Assembly: GCA_963691655.1 (NCBI GenBank)
Contig: OY829328.1
Coordinates: 76,016,400 to 76,080,399, forward strand
Length of the DNA stretch: 64,000 nt
Source: Toxonevra muliebris
Lineage: Eukaryota; Arthropoda; Insecta; Diptera; Pallopteridae
Direction: 5' to 3'
The notes under the pieces were generated by a model. It had not been told where the DNA came from and searched no databases. It saw only the letters and a list, made by a program, of their open reading frames with translations. The translations under genes and the position numbers were made by a program. Below, one piece after another: positions 22,358 to 57,139 of this stretch. How positions within the stretch are numbered: position 1 is the stretch's first letter; the number at the start of each line of letters is the position of its first letter.

Positions 22358-23647
22358 TCAGTATATATTTGAGATGTCTATACGTTCTTTTGACTTATTT
22401 CTCACGTATATATCATCATTTGCATTTCCGGCCAGGAGCATAGCGTACTCGTCGATAGTCCTAAAGAACAGATTGCTAGTAGTTGTAGATGTGCCTATCT
22501 GTAAATAATCGGACTGATCGAGGGCTGGTGCCCACACCAGTTTACAGTTCTTTCTTTCGATGAACATGTTAATTGCAAAACTGTTAACAACAGATGATAC
22601 GTAGACCTGTTGTACTGCATCCATGGTTAAGGTCTGCAACAGGAGTAACCTGGAAATCGCTGCTTCATCTAGTGTCGGACCAGACTCTAGTTCGCTCATG
22701 TGCATTATCGTAGCGATGGACTTTTGGTCTTTGAGTCCAGGGATAGGCATCAAGGCACGAATCGCGCCAGTCTGTGACAGTTCAGCATCCACAATTGCTT
22801 TTATTTGCATGCCAAATGCTGACAGTTCAAGTCGGGATGTAGGGTGGAGCTTTCTGTTGTTAACATCAACACCCACAGCTGGGAATGTGTTTTTAAAGGC
22901 ATCGCCATCCGCGACTAGTACTTCATATGGAAGTAAAGGGTCTGACCACATAACAGGACTATACTTTGTGAAATTCTCTTCAAGTTTATTTCGCAGTATT
23001 TCAGTCCCGGATGGCATGTATTCAACAGAAACAGGAGCAGGTTTGGGGATAGGATCCGCGAACATCCTGGCTATTATGGCGAATACCTCAGCAGGGGCCT
23101 GAGTCAAAGCAGTAATCATGTGGGACTGAGGGATCCCTCCGTGAGATGGACCTCCTGCCCCGTCATTGTTGGGTCGGTTGTCATTCCTGTTTCCGCCACC
23201 GTTATCAGGGTTCGGGTCGGGATCACCTCCTTGTCTACCGCCTTGATTTCTTCGGCCGCTGGGATCAGCATCACCTCCTCCACCACTTCTTGAGCCAGAT
23301 GGACCCCCATCTCCACCCAATCCGTCTCCGCCTCTAGTGCTGATGGAAGCATTGCGTAGTGCGCTATTTTGACGAGTTGATCTGCCAGACGGCGCAGACT
23401 TACCACGAGTGTCGGACGATGTGACATGAAGTTTTGTCTGGTTGTTGTTGACTCTGTCGTTTCCAAGTAAACAGGGTGTCGCCAACTGTCCACCCTCCGC
23501 AACGTACGGTCTGGAGTTGTCATGGGCCGCTCCATGATCTGAGTATTCTTTCGCATATGAATCTTGCGTGCGACCAGTCTGTGAGCTATATGTGCATTCA
23601 ACAGACGACAAAATGCCCTGTGTAGAGTCAATGTTAGACGGATTCAT
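22358..23647 (-). CDS. Capsid-like ORF of an LTR element (429 codons)
   Basis: This is the longest open frame of the window. Residues 1-100 are Ser/Thr/Gln-rich. Residues 105-170 are Gly/Asp/Asn-rich (GGDGLGGDGGPSGSRSGGGG) and disordered-looking. Residues 175-429 look folded (HMITALTQAPAEVFAIIARM, SYLQIGT-type and FRTIDEYAMLLAGNANDDIY segments). There is no zinc knuckle or protease. The ATG lies 230 bp inside a primer-binding site (23875-23886) and just after an L4 LTR, the place of Gag. It resembles no gypsy Gag I know; a capsid of viral origin is possible but untested. Confidence 0.55.
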   Translation of the reverse strand: MNPSNIDSTQGILSSVECTYSSQTGRTQDSYAKEYSDHGAAHDNSRPYVAEGGQLATPCLLGNDRVNNNQTKLHVTSSDTRGKSAPSGRSTRQNSALRNASISTRGGDGLGGDGGPSGSRSGGGGDADPSGRRNQGGRQGGDPDPNPDNGGGNRNDNRPNNDGAGGPSHGGIPQSHMITALTQAPAEVFAIIARMFADPIPKPAPVSVEYMPSGTEILRNKLEENFTKYSPVMWSDPLLPYEVLVADGDAFKNTFPAVGVDVNNRKLHPTSRLELSAFGMQIKAIVDAELSQTGAIRALMPIPGLKDQKSIATIMHMSELESGPTLDEAAISRLLLLQTLTMDAVQQVYVSSVVNSFAINMFIERKNCKLVWAPALDQSDYLQIGTSTTTSNLFFRTIDEYAMLLAGNANDDIYVRNKSKERIDISNIY

Positions 23648-23874
23648 TTCTTTTATGTTTTTATGTCTAATTGTAAAGAGATGTGTTAATGAATAGACAG
23701 AATTATGTATCTATCGTTTTGTACGAATATATTTTGTGAATATTTTTTCTTTTTTATTTTCTTAAAAAGCTCGTAAAAATCTCTTTGTTCTGGCACAGGG
23801 CCTACTGTTCCGTATTATACTATTGTACTTCAATCTAATCTGCAGGAATCAGTGTGATTCAAAGTTCAGACTGT

Positions 23875-31679: not shown

Positions 31680-31720
31680 CTCTGAAACACAACGCTTCGG
31701 AGGCACTCAAGTATATATAT
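31680..31720 (-). repeat. Terminal scrap of the BUD31-derived repeat
   Basis: CACAACGCTTCGGAGGCACTCAAGTAT (read in two parts, CACAACGCTTCGG and AGGCACTCAAGTAT) matches the variant unit edge at 32630-32655. It lies 0.9 kb beyond the main array, so sequence was inserted between it and the array, or the array end was duplicated. Confidence 0.6.
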
Positions 31721-32500: not shown

Positions 32501-32676
32501 TAAAACTAGATCAGGTAGTAGCAGGTTACAAGTTCAAGTCCCAAGCTCCAAAATTGGTACAGATCTGCAGTTCTCTGTGAAATGCGTTGTATATGTATCG
32601 TGTTTTTTCATGATGTATTTTGTAGAGGCCACAACGCTTCGGAGGCACTCAAGTATGTACATTGCATTTGGATGTG

Positions 32677-33018
32677 TTATCCGTTTAAAACCGATCCAAA
32701 CACCGCAAACGGTTCAAATCGGTTTTGAGATCTTCGGTACTTCTCTGCTTTATCTAAGGCGCGACATTCGCAATCAGTGCCGAAATCCGAATACGTCCGG
32801 TGAATGCAATCTAGGCAGCATAGCTTCTCGTACCCAAATTCCTTCCACGTTTCAATCAAGCTCCCGTCCGCTATATTCTCTTGAATGCAAAATTCATATA
32901 GTTAAGCAGTGATCATTTTTTCGCGATGAAATGCGTTGAAAATATATCTGGTTTTATCGTGATATATTTTATAAAGTGGCCACAAAGCTTCTGCGGCACT
33001 CGAGTATGTACATTGCAT
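32677..33018 (-). pseudogene. Bud31: BUD31-like unit 1
   Basis: Has a stop codon where others read ITAELYEF (ITA-stop-LYEF) but keeps EFGYEKLCCLDCIHRTYSDF. It is the last full unit on the minus strand. Confidence 0.8.
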
Positions 33019-33027
33019 TTGGATGTG

Positions 33028-33369
33028 TTAACCGTTTAAAACCGATCCAAACACCGCAACCGGTTCAAATCGGTTTTACGATCTTCGGTACTTCTCTGCT
33101 TTATCTAAGGCGCGACATTCGCAATCAGTGCCGAAATCTGAATACGTCCGGTGAATGCAATGTAGGCAACATAGCTTCTCGTACCCAAATTCCTTCCACC
33201 TTTCAATCAAACTCCCGTCCGCTATATTCTCTTGAATGCAAAATTCATATAGTTCAGCAGTGATCATTTTTTCGCGATGAAATGCGTTGAAAATATATCT
33301 GGTTTTATCGTGATATATTTTATAAAGTGGCCACAAAGCTTCTGCGGCACTCAAGTATGTACATTGCAT
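33028..33369 (-). pseudogene. Bud31: BUD31-like unit 2
   Basis: Open up to EKYRRS, where a point change creates an early stop; the zinc-region cysteines are kept. The CCLDC motif reads CCLHC. Confidence 0.8.
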
Positions 33370-33378
33370 TTGGATGTG

Positions 33379-33716
33379 TTATCCGTTTAAAACCGATCCA
33401 AACACCGCAACCGGTTCAAATCGGTTTTAAGATCTTCGGTACTTCTCTGCTTTATCTAAGGCGCGACATTCGCAATCAGTGCCGAAATCTGAATACGTCC
33501 GGTGAATGCAATCTAGGCAACATAGCTTCTCGTACCCAAATTCCACGTTTCAATCAAACTCCCGTCCGCTATATTCTCTTGAATGCAAAATTGGTACAGT
33601 TCAGCAGTTATAATTTTTTCCCGGTGAAATGCGTTGAATATATATCTGGTTTTATCGTGATATATTTTATAAAGTGGCCACAAAGCTTCTGCGGCACTCA
33701 AGTATGTACATTGCAT
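33379..33716 (-). pseudogene. Bud31: BUD31-like unit 3
   Basis: A small deletion shifts the frame after SLIETW (reads IETWNLGTRSYVA), destroying the cysteine region. The same deletion is present in unit 8. Confidence 0.8.
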
Positions 33717-33725
33717 TTGGATGTG

Positions 33726-34067
33726 TTATCCGTTTAAAACCGATCCAAACACCGCAAACGGTTCAAATCGGTTTTGAGATCTTCGGTACTTCTCTGCTTT
33801 ATCTAGGGCGCGACATTCGCAATCAGTGCCGAAATCCGAATACGTCCGGTGAATGCAGTCTAGGCAACATAGCTTCTCGTACCCAAATTCCTTCCACGTT
33901 TCAATCAAGCTCCCGTCCGCTATATTCTCTTGAATGCAAAATTCATATAGTTCAGCAGTTATAATTTTTTCCCGGTGAAATGCGTTGGATATATATCTGG
34001 TTTTATCGTGATATATTTTATAAAGTGGCGACAAAGCTTCTGCGGCACTCAAGTATGTACATTGCAT
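33726..34067 (-). CDS. Bud31: BUD31-like unit 4, open frame of 113 codons
   Basis: Uninterrupted, with ALSPLYKIYHDKTRYISNAF in place of ALWPLYK..YIFNAF. It carries CCLDC and CEC. It begins at an ATG but lacks the BUD31 N terminus and C-terminal cysteine cluster, so expression as a working BUD31 is unlikely. Confidence 0.55.
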   Translation of the reverse strand: MQCTYLSAAEALSPLYKIYHDKTRYISNAFHREKIITAELYEFCIQENIADGSLIETWKEFGYEKLCCLDCIHRTYSDFGTDCECRALDKAEKYRRSQNRFEPFAVFGSVLNG

Positions 34068-34076
34068 TTGGATGTG

Positions 34077-34418
34077 TTATCCGTTTAAAACCGATCCAAA
34101 CACCGCAACCGGTTCAAATCGATTTTGAGATCTTCGGTACTTCTCTGCTTTATCTAGGGCGAGACATTCGCAATCAGTGCCGAAATCTGAATTCGTCCGG
34201 TGAATGCAATCTAGGCAACATAGCTTCTCGTACCCAAATTCCTTCCACCTTTCAATCAAACTCCCGTCCGCTATATTCTCTTGAATGCAAAATTCATATA
34301 GTTCAGCAGTGATCATTTTTTCGCGATGAAATGCGTTGAAAATATATCTGGTTTTATCGTGATATATTTTATAAAGTGGCCACAAAGCTTCTGCGGCACT
34401 CAAGTATGTACATTGCAT
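34077..34418 (-). CDS. Bud31: BUD31-like unit 5, open frame of 113 codons
   Basis: Open; identical in protein to unit 7 (34779-35120). Reads HRTNSDFGTDCECLALDKAE. Confidence 0.55.
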   Translation of the reverse strand: MQCTYLSAAEALWPLYKIYHDKTRYIFNAFHREKMITAELYEFCIQENIADGSLIERWKEFGYEKLCCLDCIHRTNSDFGTDCECLALDKAEKYRRSQNRFEPVAVFGSVLNG

Positions 34419-34427
34419 TTGGATGTG

Positions 34428-34769
34428 TTATCCGTTTAAAACCGATCCAAACACCGCAACCGGTTCAAATCGGTTTTGAGATCTTCGGTACTTCTCTGCT
34501 TTATCTAGGGCGAGACATTCGCAATCAGTGCCGAAATCTGAATTCGTCCGGTGAATGCAATCTAGGCAACATAGCTTCTCGTACCCAAATTCCTTCCACC
34601 TTTCAATCAAGCTCCCGTCCGCTATATTCTCTTGAATGCAAAATTCATATAGTTCAGCAGTGATCATTTTTTCCCGGTGAAATGCGTTGGATATATATCT
34701 GGTTTTATCGTGATATATTTTATAAAGTGGCGACAAAGCTTCTGCGGCACTCAAGTATGTACATTGCAT
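34428..34769 (-). CDS. Bud31: BUD31-like unit 6, open frame of 113 codons
   Basis: Open; shares the ALSPLYK and YISNAF variants with unit 4, 702 bp away, which marks the two-unit higher-order period. Confidence 0.55.
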   Translation of the reverse strand: MQCTYLSAAEALSPLYKIYHDKTRYISNAFHREKMITAELYEFCIQENIADGSLIERWKEFGYEKLCCLDCIHRTNSDFGTDCECLALDKAEKYRRSQNRFEPVAVFGSVLNG

Positions 34770-34778
34770 TTGGATGTG

Positions 34779-35120
34779 TTATCCGTTTAAAACCGATCCA
34801 AACACCGCAACCGGTTCAAATCGATTTTGAGATCTTCGGTACTTCTCTGCTTTATCTAGGGCGAGACATTCGCAATCAGTGCCGAAATCTGAATTCGTCC
34901 GGTGAATGCAATCTAGGCAACATAGCTTCTCGTACCCAAATTCCTTCCACCTTTCAATCAAACTCCCGTCCGCTATATTCTCTTGAATGCAAAATTCATA
35001 TAGTTCAGCAGTGATCATTTTTTCGCGATGAAATGCGTTGAAAATATATCTGGTTTTATCGTGATATATTTTATAAAGTGGCCACAAAGCTTCTGCGGCA
35101 CTCAAGTATGTACATTGCAT
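34779..35120 (-). CDS. Bud31: BUD31-like unit 7, open frame of 113 codons
   Basis: Open and identical in protein to unit 5. Units 4-5 and 6-7 form nearly identical 702 bp blocks. Confidence 0.55.
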   Translation of the reverse strand: MQCTYLSAAEALWPLYKIYHDKTRYIFNAFHREKMITAELYEFCIQENIADGSLIERWKEFGYEKLCCLDCIHRTNSDFGTDCECLALDKAEKYRRSQNRFEPVAVFGSVLNG

Positions 35121-35129
35121 TTGGATGTG

Positions 35130-35452
35130 TTATCCGTTTAAAACCGATCCAAACACCGCAACCGGTTCAAATCGGTTTTGAGATCTTCGGTACTTCTCTG
35201 CTTTATCTAGGGCGAGACATTCGCAATCAGTGCCGAAATCTGAATTCGTCCGGTGAATGCAATCTAGGCAACATAGCTTCTCGTACCCAAATTCCACGTT
35301 TCAATCAAACTCCCGTCCGCTATATTCTCTTGAATGCAAAATTGGTACAGTTCAGCAGTTCTCTGTGAAATGCGTTGTATATGGATCATGTTTTTTCATG
35401 ATGTATTTTGTAGTGGCCACAACGTTTCGGAGGCACTCAAGTATGTACATTG
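35130..35452 (-). pseudogene. Bud31: BUD31-like unit 8
   Basis: Diverged first third (LSASETLWPLQNTS then stop) plus the unit 3 type deletion. The divergent variant resembles the worn fragment at 32505-32667, so these two are older than the rest. Confidence 0.75.
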
Positions 35453-35464
35453 CATTTGGATGTG

Positions 35465-35821
35465 TTATCCGTTTAAAACCGATCCAAACACCGCAACCGG
35501 TTCAAATCGATTTTGAGATCTTCGGTACTTCTCTGCTTTATCTAGGGCGCGACATTCGCAATCAGTGCCGAAATCTGAATTCGTCCGCTGAATGCAATCT
35601 AGGCAACATAGCTTCTCGTACCCAAATTCCTTCCACGTTTCAATCAAGCTCCCGTCCGCTATATTCTCTTGAATGCAAAATTCATATAGTTCAGCAGTGA
35701 TCATTTTTTCGCGATGAAATGCGTTGAAAATATATCTGGTTTTATCGTGATATATTTTATAAAGTGGCCACAAAGCTTCTGCGGCACTCAAATACAATGT
35801 ATTTGGATCTGTTATACGGTT
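35465..35821 (-). CDS. Bud31: BUD31-like unit 9 with upstream splice acceptor
   Basis: The only unit with a plausible acceptor: the minus strand reads a T-rich tract then ATTACTTTTAG|CT at about 35821. The frame then reads NRITDPNTLYLSAAEALWP, resembling KRIT-ESLWP in BUD31. The open frame runs to the stop at 35465. This is likely the ancestral exon 2, paired with exon 1 at 35909-36124. It too lacks the C-terminal cysteine cluster. No clear donor was found for the presumed intron, so the gene model is incomplete. Confidence 0.6.
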   Translation of the reverse strand, partial: NRITDPNTLYLSAAEALWPLYKIYHDKTRYIFNAFHREKMITAELYEFCIQENIADGSLIETWKEFGYEKLCCLDCIQRTNSDFGTDCECRALDKAEKYRRSQNRFEPVAVFGSVLNG

Positions 35822-35908
35822 AGCTAAAAGTAATTAAAAAAAAGGAAATGAAATAAATAGATTATTGAAACGTAAACGATATATAAAATAACATAAAAGT
35901 ATATTTTC

Positions 35909-36124
35909 TCAAAGGGTCATAGTCTGTCGCTGAAGAGGGGAAAAATGTAAATTTTTTTGTTTGATTTGTTTTTTCTGAAACCAAATATTATCATTCAATT
36001 TTGGCTCAATTAATTTCCAGCCATATGGTGTACTCATCCAGGTTACCATGGCCATTTTCCTCGTTGATTCGTGGATTTGAAAGTCTACAAATGCGACGGG
36101 ACTGTGACTTCTTTTGTTGGCCAT
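35909..36124 (-). CDS. Bud31: BUD31-like exon 1 (partial gene)
   Basis: The frame begins MANKRSHSPVAFVDFQIHES; a second ATG gives MAMVTWMSTPYGWKLIEPKL then NDNIWFQKK. The segment P-x-GW-LIEP-L matches the N-terminal PDGWELIEPTL of BUD31. The usual basic MPKVxRSRKPP start is replaced, so this is a diverged duplicate and not the conserved single-copy gene. It lies about 90-110 bp from unit 9 in the correct order. Its 3' border is unclear; the frame reads on to a stop at 35909. Confidence 0.65.
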   Translation of the reverse strand: MANKRSHSPVAFVDFQIHESTRKMAMVTWMSTPYGWKLIEPKLNDNIWFQKKQIKQKNLHFSPLQRQTMTL

Positions 36125-40889: not shown

Positions 40890-42590
40890 GAACGATCATC
40901 TTTACTAACTGCACCTGGCCCATCCTTGGATGCATTGCTCAACTTACCACTCCTTGATATTTTGCTAAAGGAGAGGCTGTCAAAGCCATCTGTAGGCTTA
41001 AACGCAATGGGTATTGGTATGACACTTGCTGGGATATTGGTGACATTGTTGAAGGTACTGATATGGACCTAACAGTTCTATCAATGCCATCCGATACAAT
41101 GCCAACAATTCCAGTTTTAAAACAGCGCTATACAATACAAATTCCAGAGGCCCAAACTTGGCTTTTGCCGGGACCTTGGCCGGAAGTTGATTGTAAGCGT
41201 ATTTTCACTGACGGCTCCAGAACAGGATTCGGTTGGGGTTCTAGGGTCTTTATTGAAACTGATGAAGTGCACCTTCACTTCTCCCTTGGGTTGTATGCTT
41301 CTGTTTTTCAAGCAGAAGTTTTTGCAATCATCAAAGCAATGGACCATGTTATTGATAATGGTTGGAGAGAAAGGAGTATCTGTGTATTTAGTGACAGTCA
41401 GACTGTGCTTAAATCCTTGCTTAATCTTCTAACTACATCTAAACTGGTTATGCATTGTAAATCCAAGCTCGATTGTGTTGGAAAACACAATAGCCTGCTT
41501 TTGACATGGGTTCCTGGACACTCAGGAATTTCAGGAAATGAATCGGCTGACCTTCTGGCCAGAAAAGGTTCGGAAACTGGTTATCTGGGCCCAGAACCTG
41601 TACTCTCTTTGTCGTCTACAGCCATTAAGACCATCATAAATGAGTGGGTCGACTTGACGCACAAACGTAAACGGGAGGAACTGAGGGGCTTTAGACAGAC
41701 AAAGACCATGTTACCTGTTATATCGAAGCGTCTAAAAAACTTTCTGTTATTACTTAATAGAAAGAAAGAGCTGCAGGCAGCTGGTGGGATTATATACAGG
41801 TCATTTCTCTTGGGCCAAACATTTGCATATGATTGGCCTAGAAGCTAGTGCCTTTTGTGCTTCCTGTGGTTTGGAGGAAGAATGTGAAGAGACGGCGGAC
41901 CACTTTCTTAGTGTCTGCTCCGCTTTCTGCCAGATCAGAGTAAGCATATTTGGTACTGGAGAGTTGGGAGACGAACACCTGAGCTCTCTAACACCGCGGG
42001 ATCTACTAAGATTTATTAATAAATCTGGTAGATTTAAAGAATAGCAAAAGGAAACACAGGATATAGTACAATGGACGTAAAACTTGTCTGAGTGCTGTAT
42101 TTTTGAATACTTCTTTTGTCTGTTCCAACAAAAAAAAAAACTGCAGTTCAAACCATTATGTGACAGTTACCGTTGTGTCCCAGTGGTTTAAGGAAGACCA
42201 AAATTTGTCTGTAGCCCTCTAGGGCGAATATGTACTGCCCGTGGTAGGAAAAAATCGAGATGTTGATTTACATGTTTAGGAGCCCCCAAATAGTCAAAAA
42301 AGACTATTCACAAAATTTTACCTGGCCAGGTTTAGCCGAACGAAAAAACGCTCAGGGAGTTTTAAAATACTCCGACTTACACAAAATGTGTCTATCGACA
42401 GAGGGAGCTTTTATCTAGTATTTTTAATAATTTTTTGAAATTGACGACACAAAAAACAAAAAAGAGAACCCAAAAAAAAAGTGATGTTATCCCATAAAAG
42501 TCACAATAGTTTCGACGGTTATGCTTCGATTGTAACAAAATAGGTGCCAAACCATAGAGGAAAAACAATAAAGATATCAATATCAAAATT
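40890..42590 (+). mobile_element. LINE family N1, copy 2, with RNase H
   Basis: The open frame at 41063-41848 encodes an RNase H domain: FTDGSRTGFGWG (first Asp), FQAEVFAIIKAM (Glu), VFSDSQTVLKSL (Asp) and WVPGHSGISGNESADLLAR (His/Asp). After a frameshift near 41800, ASAFCASCGLEEECEETADH then FLSVCSAF gives the C-terminal CCHC-like end. The 3' UTR reaches 42590. The RT domain is missing except for a shifted scrap from 40940. RNase H after RT is typical of I, LOA and related LINEs. 5'-truncated and frameshifted. Confidence 0.85.
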
Positions 42591-44762: not shown

Positions 44763-46060
44763 ATTATCCATTGCTTGACTTGCTTCCTCTGGATCTTCAA
44801 ATCCGTAAAGAAGCGATGAGAGCGGCCTATAGACTTCGGTTAAACGAAGTCTGGGATGTCGAAGCTAATGTAGGGCACAGTCAGATATACCACCAGTTGT
44901 CAGTACAGTGCCCACTAGTTTTGATGCCCGTGAACAATCGTATGCCTTGTATCTGCTTCGGAGGATGATATGATGTCAGGTTCCCGGAAAAAGATCAATG
45001 GTTAAGTACAGAGGTCGTACTCTGGAGTCTCCGTCATGACTTCTGTGCTGACGCATACATAACCTTAAACGGTACTGGATCCCGTTAGCTCTTGGACGAT
45101 GAGACCAAGTACTCTTTTTCCACTGAAAAGATGGCGTCAGTCTTCCTAACGGAGGTTTTCGCTATCGTAGACGTGGTGGGCTGGGTAATTGAGAAGAGAT
45201 GGCGTGGGAAGTGCATAGGCATCTGCAGTGATAGCCAAGCTGTACTGAAGGCCCTTGCTAACCCTGTCAGCTGGGTAATTGAGAAGAGATGGCATGGGAA
45301 GTGCATAGGCATCTGCAGTGATAGCCAAGCTGTACTGAAGGCCCTTGCTAACCCTGTCAGCTCCTCAAAATTGGTCAGCGAGTGTAAGGCGAAGCTAAAT
45401 AGTGTCGCAAAACACAACAAGTTATGCCTTATACGAGTTCCTGGACACTCTGGTATTGCAGGGAATGAACTAGCTAATGAAGGTTCTGTAATTGCACCAT
45501 GGAGTCCGGAACCTTTTCTTGGCGTAAGTTCTGGGGAGATCATGCGTTGGATTAACGACTTCGTGGGTTCTATTCATAAAGAAAGATAGTGCTACCTTGA
45601 CTACTGCAGAACCACAAAATGCTTCGTGAGACAACCTAACAGGAAATCAGCGAAATTTCTTCTGAAACTGAAAAGGACCTGAAATTACTGGTGGGGTGTC
45701 ATCACCAGGCATAACACATGTAGTCAGCACATGATCAACATGGACGTCATCACCAATCCAACCTGCCAATTGTGTCTTGAGGACGGCAATACTACCGAGA
45801 TTATCTTTGTAGCTGTCCGGCGTTGTTGGATAGTGGTGTCTTGGGTATGAAGAATGTCCATACTCTCCCACTTCCTGAGCTTCCAAGGTTTATTAGTGAA
45901 AGAAAGAAGTTAGAAGTTGAGAGACCTTAGTCCTTTCTTCTTCCCCTCACATATCTTTCCTGTCTCTCCACTGGCTCTATCTTTGGTATAATAAAATGTT
46001 CTTTGAGATTAAATGCTTTGGTTTAGTCCAGCCCACCTTCAACTCTAAACTCTAACAATA
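44763..46060 (+). pseudogene. LINE ORF2 3' part with internally duplicated RNase H
   Basis: LDLLPLDLQIRKEAMRAAYR (44771 on) is the RT/RNase H connection. The frame at 45092-45589 reads FLTEVFAIVDVVGWVIEKRW, CSDSQAVLKALANPVS, RVPGHSGIAGNELANEGS. The segment 45181-45270 is repeated in frame at 45271-45360, so WVIEKRW through ALANPVS occurs twice. The first RNase H motif (TDGS) is missing; DDETKYSFSTEKM stands in its place. After a stop, worn NPTCQLCLEDGNTTEIIF follows. Confidence 0.8.
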
Positions 46061-51113: not shown

Positions 51114-52040
51114 TTAAATTTGCTTCATTGCTTGCTTGATCCATTGTTCATAAGCCGCAACACGCGTATACACACCAGGATATTCGGGATTTGCACAACC
51201 AATACCAAATGAAACAATACCAAACAATTTCCTACGACCATTTACATAGGTAATCAATGGTCCACCAGAATCACCTTTACAACTATCATGACCACCGTTC
51301 GGCGTTCCAGCGCATAACATATTTTCCGTAATATTTATGCTGACTTTATCGTAAGCTAGCGAACATTTGTTCTGATTTAGGGGCTGTATAATAGTATAAC
51401 GTAAACGTGGTGACCTCATCAATGCCTCACCGGATACTGCACCCCAACCACTAACGAACAGTTCTTGGTGTTGCTGCAGCTCTTTCAATGATATCACATC
51501 ATCATCTTCTTCCTTCGTTGCAGCAGACATCATTGCAATCGGTTGTATATTGCGATTGAATGTAAGCGGATTTTTCAAATGCACCAATGCAATATCATTG
51601 CTCATTAGTGTTGGTTTATGAAACAATTCATGTGGCATTATTTTTTTCACTTGCTCAACGACACCACCACGTGCATGTTCAGTGGAACCAGCGCGTATTG
51701 TATACAAATTCGGCTGATAATATTGTGCAGCACAATGTGCTGCTGTTAGCGCAACCTGCGATGTGATGAGTGCAGCACCGCAAATGTGTGTCTCATAAAA
51801 TTGCAGTGAAAGTTGATGAGGAAAAATGACGATAGAAGTTTCAATGCCACCGACAATGCGTCCATCCTGTTTTTGCTGTTGCTTTGGTTCTGACCCGATT
51901 GAGGTGTTGTCGTTGATTGATGCGACTGCGTCTCTAGCTGCTGCTGCTACATAGAAAGCTCCTTGCCAGTATGACAGCAGTGCAATTAGTACTAGCTTTT
52001 TTGGTATTTGCTGTTTTGTTATAATATTATAGCATTTCAT
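51114..52040 (-). CDS. Secreted trypsin-like serine protease (S1), single exon, 308 aa
   Basis: Residues about 15-35 form a signal peptide (KLVLIALLSYWQGAFYVAAA). A short Gln-rich propeptide ends in R61, followed by IVGG, the activation site. The catalytic triad is H102 (LTAAHC), D149 (NDIALVHL) and S258 (GDSGGP). D252, six residues before the serine, predicts trypsin specificity for Arg/Lys. Cysteines 87/103, 226/243 and 254/282 are present in usual positions. A Glu/Asp-rich insert (KEEDDDVISLKELQQHQE, about 176-193) lengthens one surface loop. There is no clip domain. The frame is intact. It could serve digestion or haemolymph proteolysis; the sequence does not decide. Confidence 0.95.
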   Translation of the reverse strand: MKCYNIITKQQIPKKLVLIALLSYWQGAFYVAAAARDAVASINDNTSIGSEPKQQQKQDGRIVGGIETSIVIFPHQLSLQFYETHICGAALITSQVALTAAHCAAQYYQPNLYTIRAGSTEHARGGVVEQVKKIMPHELFHKPTLMSNDIALVHLKNPLTFNRNIQPIAMMSAATKEEDDDVISLKELQQHQELFVSGWGAVSGEALMRSPRLRYTIIQPLNQNKCSLAYDKVSINITENMLCAGTPNGGHDSCKGDSGGPLITYVNGRRKLFGIVSFGIGCANPEYPGVYTRVAAYEQWIKQAMKQI

Positions 52041-52114
52041 GGTGCTAACTGACAGTCTCTCTTTGTTGTCTGAGTTGGTGAATTGTTTGTTGCCGATATT
52101 TTCACTTACCTGTG

Positions 52115-52122
52115 CTTAAATA
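52115..52122 (-). promoter_or_regulatory. TATA-like box of the trypsin gene
   Basis: TATTTAAG on the minus strand, about 75 bp ahead of the start codon, followed after about 40-60 bp by purine-rich leader and a TCAGTT initiator-like stretch. Position and sequence suit a core promoter. Confidence 0.35.
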
Positions 52123-53041: not shown

Positions 53042-54290
53042 CAAAGGACTCTACTCATCCTGAAACCACTTAGTACTATTAATGAACCTTACAAGGTCAG
53101 TTGGCGGAATCTCCGCTAGGTCCTCCAGTTCTACAAATAGTCTGTCTCCTAGAAAGCGAAGTCGACGGATTTGGAGATTGGGACATTTACAGAGAAAGTA
53201 GTGGATAGTCTCATGTGTTTCTTCATCTTCACAGCTTCTACAGTAGTTTGGTGCTGCGACTCCAATTCTCAAGGCCATTGCGCCAGTAGCACAAAAGCCT
53301 GTGAGTATTCCAACTAGAACTCAAATTTCTTTTCTTTTTAAACAGAGAAAATTCTGAATTCTTTTCTTATCAAGAGAATGACATAAGTTTCAGACTATCT
53401 TACAGTCACTTCGGGCTTGCCAGGATTGGTTGATTGTTTCCTCCGCTTTTTACTCTAAGTTTGATTTCATGGTTCCAATTGGTATATTTAATGACACCAT
53501 TTCATTTTCAGGATCTAAGGCTGCTCCCAATACGCGCTAGTTCATCAGTCTTTTCGTTTCCCTCGATATTGCTATGTCCGGGAACCCAGCTGAGTGTGAC
53601 TTGATGGGCATTGCTTGTTTCCTTAAGTGCGTTAAAGCAGTTTAATACTGCTTTAGGTCTTATAGTTGTATTATCCAGTGCCTTGATTGCTGCTTGGCTA
53701 TTCACAAAGATGGTGGTCCGCGAGGAATTAAGGTTCCTTGTGATGATACCTTGAGCAGCATTGTCGATAGCGAGGATCTCTGCTTGAAAGACACTACAGT
53801 AATCAGGGAGTTTATAAGATTCCATGATTTTTAGTGAATCGAAAAAAACTCCAGATCCAACACCCTCTTCCGTTTTAGACCCATCAGTGTAGAAATGAAG
53901 ATCGTTGCTGGTAATGACCGCATTATCTTTCCATTCCTGTCTGCTGAGTATAATGGTCAAGAAGTTTCTTTTTACTACCACTTGTGGTGTGATATAGTCC
54001 ATAGCGTTTTGCTTCCAAAACTGCGATTCCTTTAATCTGATGGCTGTTTTGGCTGCTCTACACTTGAGGTATTCGTCCAGTGATGGAAAGTAAAGAATCA
54101 TTTTCATTTCCGCTTGAGGCGTTTGGCTCCTGTAACTCCTAAGCATGCTAATCTCTGAACTTTTACAAGCTGATTGAGATAACTAATCTTGTTTGCTGCA
54201 TTCCACCATACCAACGATCCATAGGTAAGTACAAGACGTATGACGGCTGTGTACATCCAATGGATTAGACGTGGACGTACGCCCCATCAT
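53042..54290 (-). mobile_element. LINE family N3, copy 1, RT end and RNase H
   Basis: Minus order: WMYTAVIRLVLTYGSLVWWN and QLVKVQRLACLGVTGA (RT thumb, 54150-54285). After a frameshift, a 212-codon frame (53508-54146) gives FYTDGSKTEEGVGSGVF, FQAEILAIDNAAQG, FVNSQAAIKALDN and WVPGHSNIEGNEKTDELARI, a complete set of RNase H motifs with VNSQ in place of the usual DSQ. After another break, NYCRSCEDEETHETIHYFLC then KCPN ends ORF2 (53051-53278). 5'-truncated and dead. Confidence 0.85.
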
Positions 54291-55567: not shown

Positions 55568-56535
55568 GTTAGGTTAGGTTGGAGTGGCAGCCTTCTGCTT
55601 GAAAGCACACTTAAGCACATTTAGGCTCATTGTGATACCACAGTACGGCGCGACTCACCCATTTACGGAGTGGAGAACCATGAGGATTCCATAATGAATC
55701 TGGCTATGTCCTTAATATTTATGGATGTTAGCTCGGACTGACTAATGAAGAAAGGTGAGCCCAGGAGTTTTAGTCTCCTCCTGGCCAGGGATGGGCATTC
55801 GCACATGAAATGCGAGCCCTGTTTTGCTAACTCGTCGGCATTGCAGTTACCTGAAAAATCCATATGTCCAGGTACCCAATATAGGTGGACCTGCGAGTGA
55901 CTCGACAAAATGTTGAGTGAAGATCGGCAGTCGAGAACAAGCTTTGATGTAGTGAAAACACCGGCAAGGGACTTGATTGCTGCTTGGCCGTCCGTGTAGA
56001 TGCAGATATTCTTATCGAATGAATCGTTGCGAATAAGCCACTTGGACGCTTGATAGACGCTAACAAAGACGCTGCAATGGTCAGGAAGTCGGAAAGAGAG
56101 TCTGAGATCTAACTTACTAGAGAAGATGCCACAGCCGACTCTTTCCTCCGATTTGGATCCATCTGTATAGATGTCAATTGAATTGTCAGTGACCACCTCG
56201 TCATTAACCCATTCCTCTCTACTGGGGATATGGGTGAAGAACATATGGTTTAAATTAGGGGTAGAGCAAATATAGTCTACGTTAGTTGAAACGGACATAT
56301 CGTGGATTAAAATATTGGCATGGCACAGGTTTGACCGGGTCCAGCGAGTTAGGGCATTGAGTCTGGCAGCAGAGTACTTAGCTTGTTGCTTAACCAGAAG
56401 TAAAGTTGGCAACCAATAAAGGATTGCGAAGAGAGCTTTTGTGGAGGTAGTACGGAGAGCCCCAGTAATCAATATGGCTGCCGTTCTTCTAACCTTATCC
56501 AGTGGTTTAAGATTGACCGCCTTTGCAGTAGCTGG
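55568..56535 (-). mobile_element. LINE family N2, copy 2, 15 bp target duplication
   Basis: Flanked by TACAAATGTATTTAG on both sides (55553-55567 and 56536-56550). The long minus frame (55663-56556) reads AILITGALRTTSTKALFAIL, IYTDGSKSEERVGCGIF, CIYTDGQAAIKSLAGVF, HLYWVPGHMDFSGNCNADEL and CECPSLARRRLKLLGSPFF. The 3' tail on the minus strand ends CTAACCTAACCTAA. The long frame suggests a young copy, but it is 5'-truncated and carries an internal deletion after ELAKQGS. Confidence 0.9.
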
Positions 56536-57139
56536 TACAAATGTATTTAGTTTCATTTAATTTATTTTAGTACCAGTTTTTTTTATGTATAAAAGACGTT
56601 TTAAGCATCAGTATATTTACGCAGCGAAGACAAATTTCTTACGAAGCGCGCGAACCAACAACGGAGGACTCTTTGATCGCCATTACATTTATGCAGTGAT
56701 GCAATGTGGGGTAGCCCTGTACCTTTTCAGAAAGGCAACCTCGCAAAAAGCACTAAAACAAAAGCTAGTGGTTTCCTCCTCTAAAAAATTATTATGTATA
56801 GCATGTGTGTTAAGGGTTTCTCTTGAATTTTTAACAATTTTTACCTTACATTTTTGAAATTACGTTACTTTTCAGAGCAATTACCGTCTTACTATACGTT
56901 ACCCCAAATTACCCCGTACAAAAACGTAATGACTGTACGTATAACATCAATGAAATTCTAAGTAAAAGAGTTGAGACTGAGTTGTTCATTGGAGAAAGTA
57001 ATATACTTTCAAATGGAGAAGGAGATAAGATACGTCGTTATATTGTTTCTTATAACAGATTAGGTTAAAGGGAAGTAATCAGAAAAACTGAGCTTCTACG
57101 AGGTCCAAAAATCGTCCCATTGTGATATCTCTACACACG

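Follow-up and report, generated by a model that had tools for sequence, protein, structure and literature searches.

We analysed a 64,000-nucleotide window of the genome of the fly Toxonevra muliebris (GenBank contig OY829328.1, here C3; C3:76016400-76080399) that contains a tandem array of units resembling BUD31; our whole-genome searches cover the 491-Mb assembly of 96 contigs. BUD31 is normally a single-copy gene. The array occupies about 32549-35808 of the minus strand and comprises nine near-complete units of 335-351 bp (U1 to U9) and a truncated tenth (U10). Tandem Repeats Finder reports it at 32578-35791, with a period of 351, 9.2 copies and 94% matches. Cutting at the repeated head delimits units of 347, 335, 351, 351, 351, 351, 347, 351 and 351 bp for U1 to U9. 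Upstream of U1 lie the remains of an intron and of a first exon, and two intact genes related to the array, P1 and P2, are found elsewhere on the same contig. The sequences fall into two types, A and B. The features of the locus and the two intact genes are as follows.

35991-36124, minus strand: decayed exon 1 of a third paralog (MANKRSHSPV...PYGWKLIEPKLND), from blastn to P1
35989-35991, minus strand: breakpoint of a deletion (about 590 bp against P1) that brings together positions 1821 and 2411 of the P1 piece used in the comparison
35824-35988, minus strand: remaining 3' portion of the intron, including the acceptor AG at 35825-35824, from alignment with P1 and P2
35462-35823, minus strand: U1, exon 2 of the dead paralog and first unit, without the 4-bp insertion of U2-U10
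35476-35518, minus strand: dispersed-repeat fragment of 43 bp within U1 (unit bases 295-337), present also in U2-U9 (39 bp in U8)
35127-35461, minus strand: U2, 335 bp, with a B-type left half and frame-breaking deletions
34776-35126, minus strand: U3, 351 bp, with an open frame of 113 amino acids from its own ATG
34425-34775, minus strand: U4, 351 bp, with an open frame of 113 amino acids
34074-34424, minus strand: U5, 351 bp, identical to U3
33723-34073, minus strand: U6, 351 bp, with an open frame of 113 amino acids
33376-33722, minus strand: U7, 347 bp, with a frameshift and a B-type middle
33025-33375, minus strand: U8, 351 bp, with an open core and a premature stop past the BUD31 part
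32674-33024, minus strand: U9, 351 bp, with a TAA within the BUD31 part
32549-32673, minus strand: U10, truncated B-type unit at the right edge of the array, from blastn to P1 over 32680-32578, with the edge taken from the sequence
31688-31715, minus strand: outlying B-type fragment with a 25-base exact match, isolated about 0.8 kb past the array
C3:76337146-76338376 and C3:76342796-76344052: P1 and P2, two intact diverged BUD31 paralogs of two exons and 183 amino acids

The similarity of the units to BUD31 is strong. The Pfam profile PF01125 (BUD31) matches U1 with an E-value of 7.8e-31 (107.2 bits, above the curated cut-off of 23.8) and U3 with an E-value of 9e-29, and human BUD31 (PDB 5mqf_Q) matches U1 with an E-value of 4.5e-30 and 55.7% identity. 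The match covers one core only, corresponding to human residues 43-121. Scores of this order exclude chance as the source of the likeness. The first-pass annotation had described nine minus-strand copies with a 351-bp period that encode the centre of BUD31 and had named a search for BUD31 similarity as a check; the period, the strand and the similarity are all confirmed, as is its view that tandem growth started from one exon.

A whole-genome search with PF01125 gave 12 matches: the two exons of the normal BUD31 gene on contig C1, P1, P2 and eight stretches of the array. No intact B-type gene was among the matches of this profile search. The normal gene encodes 144 amino acids in two exons and is 86% identical to human BUD31 over residues 32-144. 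P1 and P2 lie about 285-290 kb from the array on the same chromosome (C3, 76.34 Mb), splice to 183 amino acids with GT-AG sites, and share with normal BUD31 the domain of the BUD31/G10 family (PF01125), the place and phase of the intron, and all nine zinc cysteines. These nine cysteines are absolutely conserved in the family, and BUD31 itself is a highly conserved spliceosome protein (PMC4471582). Because the intron has the same place and phase, duplication at the DNA level, rather than through RNA, is the probable origin of the paralog. P1 and P2 belong to a 2.5-kb block with 94% identity between its two copies, and their proteins differ at one residue of 183. Of the 79 core residues of normal BUD31, P1 retains 44. 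The identity of U1 to P1/P2 is 81% over 106 residues, as against 54% to normal BUD31 over 81 residues. These comparisons indicate that the source of the array is a strongly diverged two-exon paralog of the P1/P2 type, not the conserved BUD31 gene from which the first-pass annotation had derived it; its suggestion that the gene is multi-copy does hold, P1 and P2 being two intact extra genes. A further decayed exon-1-like stretch, PDDWEVIGPTVQEY*, is found near P1 at C3:76344870-76344971 (weak match, E 0.01), and no exon 2 was found in the 9.9 kb beyond it.

No relatives were found elsewhere at E <= 0.001: not in a protein collection (5 candidates), nor among viral contigs, of which 7 stretches were tried, nor in the 46 stretches tried of a set of genome contigs, which is described as bacterial and archaeal and has little bearing on animals. 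No fly BUD31 paralog or array appeared among the listed titles and abstract starts of the literature, whose coverage leaves out most subscription journals, and the word BUD31 is absent from the main text of an article on fly Y genes (PMC5627270).

The array locus is collinear with P1. The 5' flank and exon 1 (36246-35991) are followed, after a gap of about 590 bp, by the end of the intron and exon 2 (35989-35520). Identity to P1 in blastn is 71.5% over 36246-35991, with homology reaching into the 5' flank as far as 36246, and the intron part (35824-35988) is 84% identical over 132 aligned bases. A search with the exon-1 protein gave three matches in all, namely P1, P2 and the array locus. Relative to P1, the end of exon 1, the splice donor and the 5' part of the intron are deleted, and the sole GT before the in-frame stop (TTG/GTTTCA) is in the wrong phase for a donor. 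Simple decay of the donor was considered and rejected, since the alignment with P1 shows a deletion. By its predicted gene structure the array locus is thus a dead third copy of the paralog. The absence of an intron noted in the first-pass annotation is correct for the unit itself and does not extend to the locus, where a decayed exon 1 and the 3' end of an intron lie upstream of U1.

The units are not simply copies of an exon. Searching the genome with the unit DNA gave 17 matches, a figure in which the repeat counts are lower bounds: ten in the array, P1, P2 and five dispersed places (two on C1 and one each on C2, C3 and C4). P1 and P2 match unit bases 1-293 only. The five dispersed places match only unit bases 295-337 or 295-336, with 88-91% identity, and because their flanks also match one another we take the 43 bp to be a fragment of a dispersed repeat. 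It can fold as a stem-loop (a stretch from U3, -17.5 kcal/mol) and occupies the place of the P1/P2 codons for the last four zinc cysteines, with a stop shortly after. The array frames accordingly encode five of the nine cysteines that P1 and P2 encode in full, so that the Zn3Cys9 cluster cannot be complete. The codons immediately before the fragment (KAEKYRR) match P1 in frame. The unit is therefore a chimera of paralog exon 2 and a dispersed-repeat fragment, and the earlier description of a purely coding repeat does not stand: bases 295-337 come from that repeat, and the open units run into an in-frame TAA. Two other readings of the unit tail had been tried, one as an out-of-frame remnant of the cysteine-rich end of BUD31 (P 0.00065 in an anchored test; not significant in a free test, in which 60 of 500 shuffles were as good) and one as a scrambled P1 tail (P 0.006). 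Both were set aside because of the match to the dispersed repeat and the in-frame match of KAEKYRR to P1.

The sequence that fed the array bears the marks of a real gene. Over 79 codons, P1 and U1 differ by 22 synonymous and 12 nonsynonymous changes, with a synonymous divergence (dS) of 0.80, a nonsynonymous divergence (dN) of 0.065 and an omega of 0.081 (bootstrap 0.028-0.186). For exon 1, P1 and the array copy give an omega of 0.10 over 36 codons, with a dS of 1.06. This purifying selection between P1 and the array copy argues that a real gene fed the array. Between the A-type U1 and the B-type U2 we counted 12 synonymous changes, 8 missense changes and 1 stop (P 0.0006 and 0.0019 against neutral simulation under two transition biases), and between U1 and U10 14 synonymous and 7 missense changes (0 of 20,000 simulations and P 0.00005, with the same two biases). 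Together with the omega values, this excess of synonymous changes over the neutral expectation indicates that the A-type, B-type and P1 lineages split while still protein-coding.

The units themselves are in a mixed state. Five of nine (U1 and U3-U6) are open to the final TAA, and four of these (U3-U6) are open from ATG to TAA over 113 amino acids, U1 being open without that ATG. The BUD31 core is broken in three of nine, U2 and U7 by frameshifts and U9 by a stop inside the core, and U8 stops just after the core. In the first 93 codons of the A-type units (n=7; U2, U7 and U10 left out), the new changes are 11 missense, 7 synonymous and 1 stop, and three more synonymous changes are common with type B; the substitution pattern thus appears to loosen after amplification. 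A 4-bp insertion is common to U2-U10 and absent from U1 and P1, so that U2-U10 probably go back to a single altered unit, with U1 as what remains of the original exon. Exchange between copies has left its marks in the identity of U3 and U5 and in the B-type pieces of U2, U7 and U10. The units contain only exon-2 and repeat-fragment sequence and no part of the gene's upstream region, and no AATAAA or ATTAAA occurs on the minus strand of the array. Full units are 76-85% identical to P1 in DNA (blastn).

We regard the array, with good confidence, as non-functional satellite-like DNA derived from exon 2 of the third, dead copy of an old BUD31 paralog, and most likely as a pseudogene exon amplified by unequal exchange. 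BUD31 would first have been duplicated with its intron, and the copy would have diverged under purifying selection, as seen for P1 against the array. P1 and P2 would have stayed intact, while the third copy would have lost its exon-1 donor by deletion and had its 3' coding end replaced by the dispersed-repeat fragment; these events are seen by comparison, and their order we infer. The end of the fragment may then have been joined to the start of exon 2, giving the first direct duplicate; the two look alike over a few bases. Unequal exchange and conversion among the copies, including the older paralog type B, would have produced ten units, several of them damaged; the mosaic pattern is observed, and the process is the probable one.

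Several observations weigh against this account. The intron and the 5' flank have diverged less between P1 and the array copy (0.18 and 0.30) than the synonymous sites of exon 2 (0.80) and exon 1 (1.06). If the intron and flank are taken as the neutral scale, omega rises to about 0.2-0.4 in exon 2 and about 0.35-0.6 in exon 1 but does not reach 1; the true value is for this reason uncertain (0.08 to about 0.4 for exon 2, up to about 0.6 for exon 1), and the P1-array lineage is indicated to have evolved under purifying selection on an uncertain scale. The BUD31 core is still open in six of nine units, there may be some remaining constraint on the A-type units, and U3-U6 could each yield a predicted 113-amino-acid product from an in-frame ATG.

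The open frames invite the reading that the array is a working multi-copy family like Stellate, in which a truncated BUD31-like protein competes with P1/P2 or BUD31. The four fully open units and the open U1 speak for it, as does the Stellate system, itself descended from a conserved gene by way of a diverged paralog (PMC7874207). However, no unit after U1 carries the gene's own upstream region, four of the nine zinc cysteines are gone from the units, and U2, U7, U8, U9 and U10 are damaged, so we hold this unlikely. Nor do we favour the related idea that sense or antisense transcripts of the array feed small RNAs that would repress P1/P2, for which the chances seem similarly slim. Repeats are frequent sources of small RNAs, the lack of polyadenylation signals on the minus strand fits such a source, and the array shares exact stretches with P1/P2 of 32 bases in U1, 22-27 bases in seven of the other eight units and 20 bases in U2. 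Against it, all exact matches of at least 21 bases fall within one short region of P1/P2, and identity over full units is just 76-85%. Regulation of P1/P2 by the array is possible on this pattern of matches.

Tandem arrays are hard to assemble, and the identity of U3 and U5 and the lack of private changes in U4 and U7 are what an assembly artefact might leave; yet U1-U9 differ among themselves by up to 8.7%, private changes are present in U1, U2, U6, U8 and U9, and the transition from the array to the intron end and exon-1 remnant is smooth, which makes an artefact clearly improbable. A role of the array as a decoy or small-RNA source against normal BUD31, as first proposed, can appeal to the 54% protein similarity of U1 but is very unlikely indeed, since exact matches of the array to the normal coding sequence reach no more than 10 bases in the same orientation and 11 in the opposite one, and DNA identity is 66-69% in the five longer aligned stretches.

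The array can be set beside several described systems. Like the Stellate/Su(Ste) and CK2beta-tes repeats of Drosophila melanogaster, those of the array go back to the diverged paralog of a conserved gene and arose after joining to foreign sequence; CK2beta-tes is 45% identical to CK2beta, a divergence comparable to the 44 of 79 core residues kept by P1 (PMC7874207). The Stellate repeats acquired a promoter, kept their frames intact, show sex linkage and are under the control of PIWI-interacting RNAs (PMC7874207). The units described here are without the gene's upstream region, and several of them are damaged (five of nine frames open to the end); it is doubtful that each unit has a promoter of its own.

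As to sex linkage, RpS3A and ephrin, which we take to be markers of the ancestral fly X (Muller F), are not on the array contig C3: RpS3A is on C1 and ephrin on C5 and C27. Because the two markers share no contig, their absence from C3 is weak evidence. The ephrin matches on C5:2542075-2542383 and C27:273080-273388 have equal scores and are possibly an unmerged haplotype copy.

Within the BUD31 family, tandem repeats of the cysteine-rich domain alone are known from some species, mainly protozoa (PMC4471582). Our array is the reverse of that case: it repeats DNA units that each end in a stop, and it is the helical core that is retained, with some of the cysteines lost. As a tandem repeat it belongs to a known kind. 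Satellite DNA can be seeded from other sequence classes (PMC5615363), and the array is likewise head-to-tail, shows exchange between copies (period 351, 9.2 copies, U3 identical to U5, mosaics) and is partly seeded by a dispersed repeat; it differs in being a single array of ten units whose seed is mostly a protein-coding exon. The unit DNA search finds only the array described here, and neither many copies nor several arrays, with counts that are lower bounds. Exon-overlapping tandem duplications are described in Drosophila (PMC7919458), and our array likewise covers an exon but differs by its ten chimeric pseudogene units.

Other features of the window include a trypsin-family gene at 51114-52115 on the minus strand (Pfam E 6e-53) and RNase H frames, probably of retrotransposons, at 40958-41848 and 45089-45589 on the plus strand and at 53508-54182 and 55663-56556 on the minus strand. 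The frame at 45089-45589 contains a 90-bp tandem duplication at 45180-45362. An open frame of 450 amino acids at 22358-23710 on the minus strand has no Pfam or PDB match.

The array shows how an exon and a scrap of a dispersed repeat can become a tandem repeat, with intermediate states preserved. The surprise, and the more interesting finding, is the conserved, far-diverged BUD31 paralog. P1 and P2 might represent a second, tissue-specific (perhaps germline) BUD31, old and strongly selected, with the array as an evolving suppressor or antagonist in a Stellate-like conflict built around a core splicing factor and now either young or reduced to a relic; to this scenario we assign only a small probability. 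Should an animal have a second BUD31, far diverged yet conserved, one would have to ask whether specialised spliceosomes exist, and P1 and P2 make that question testable.

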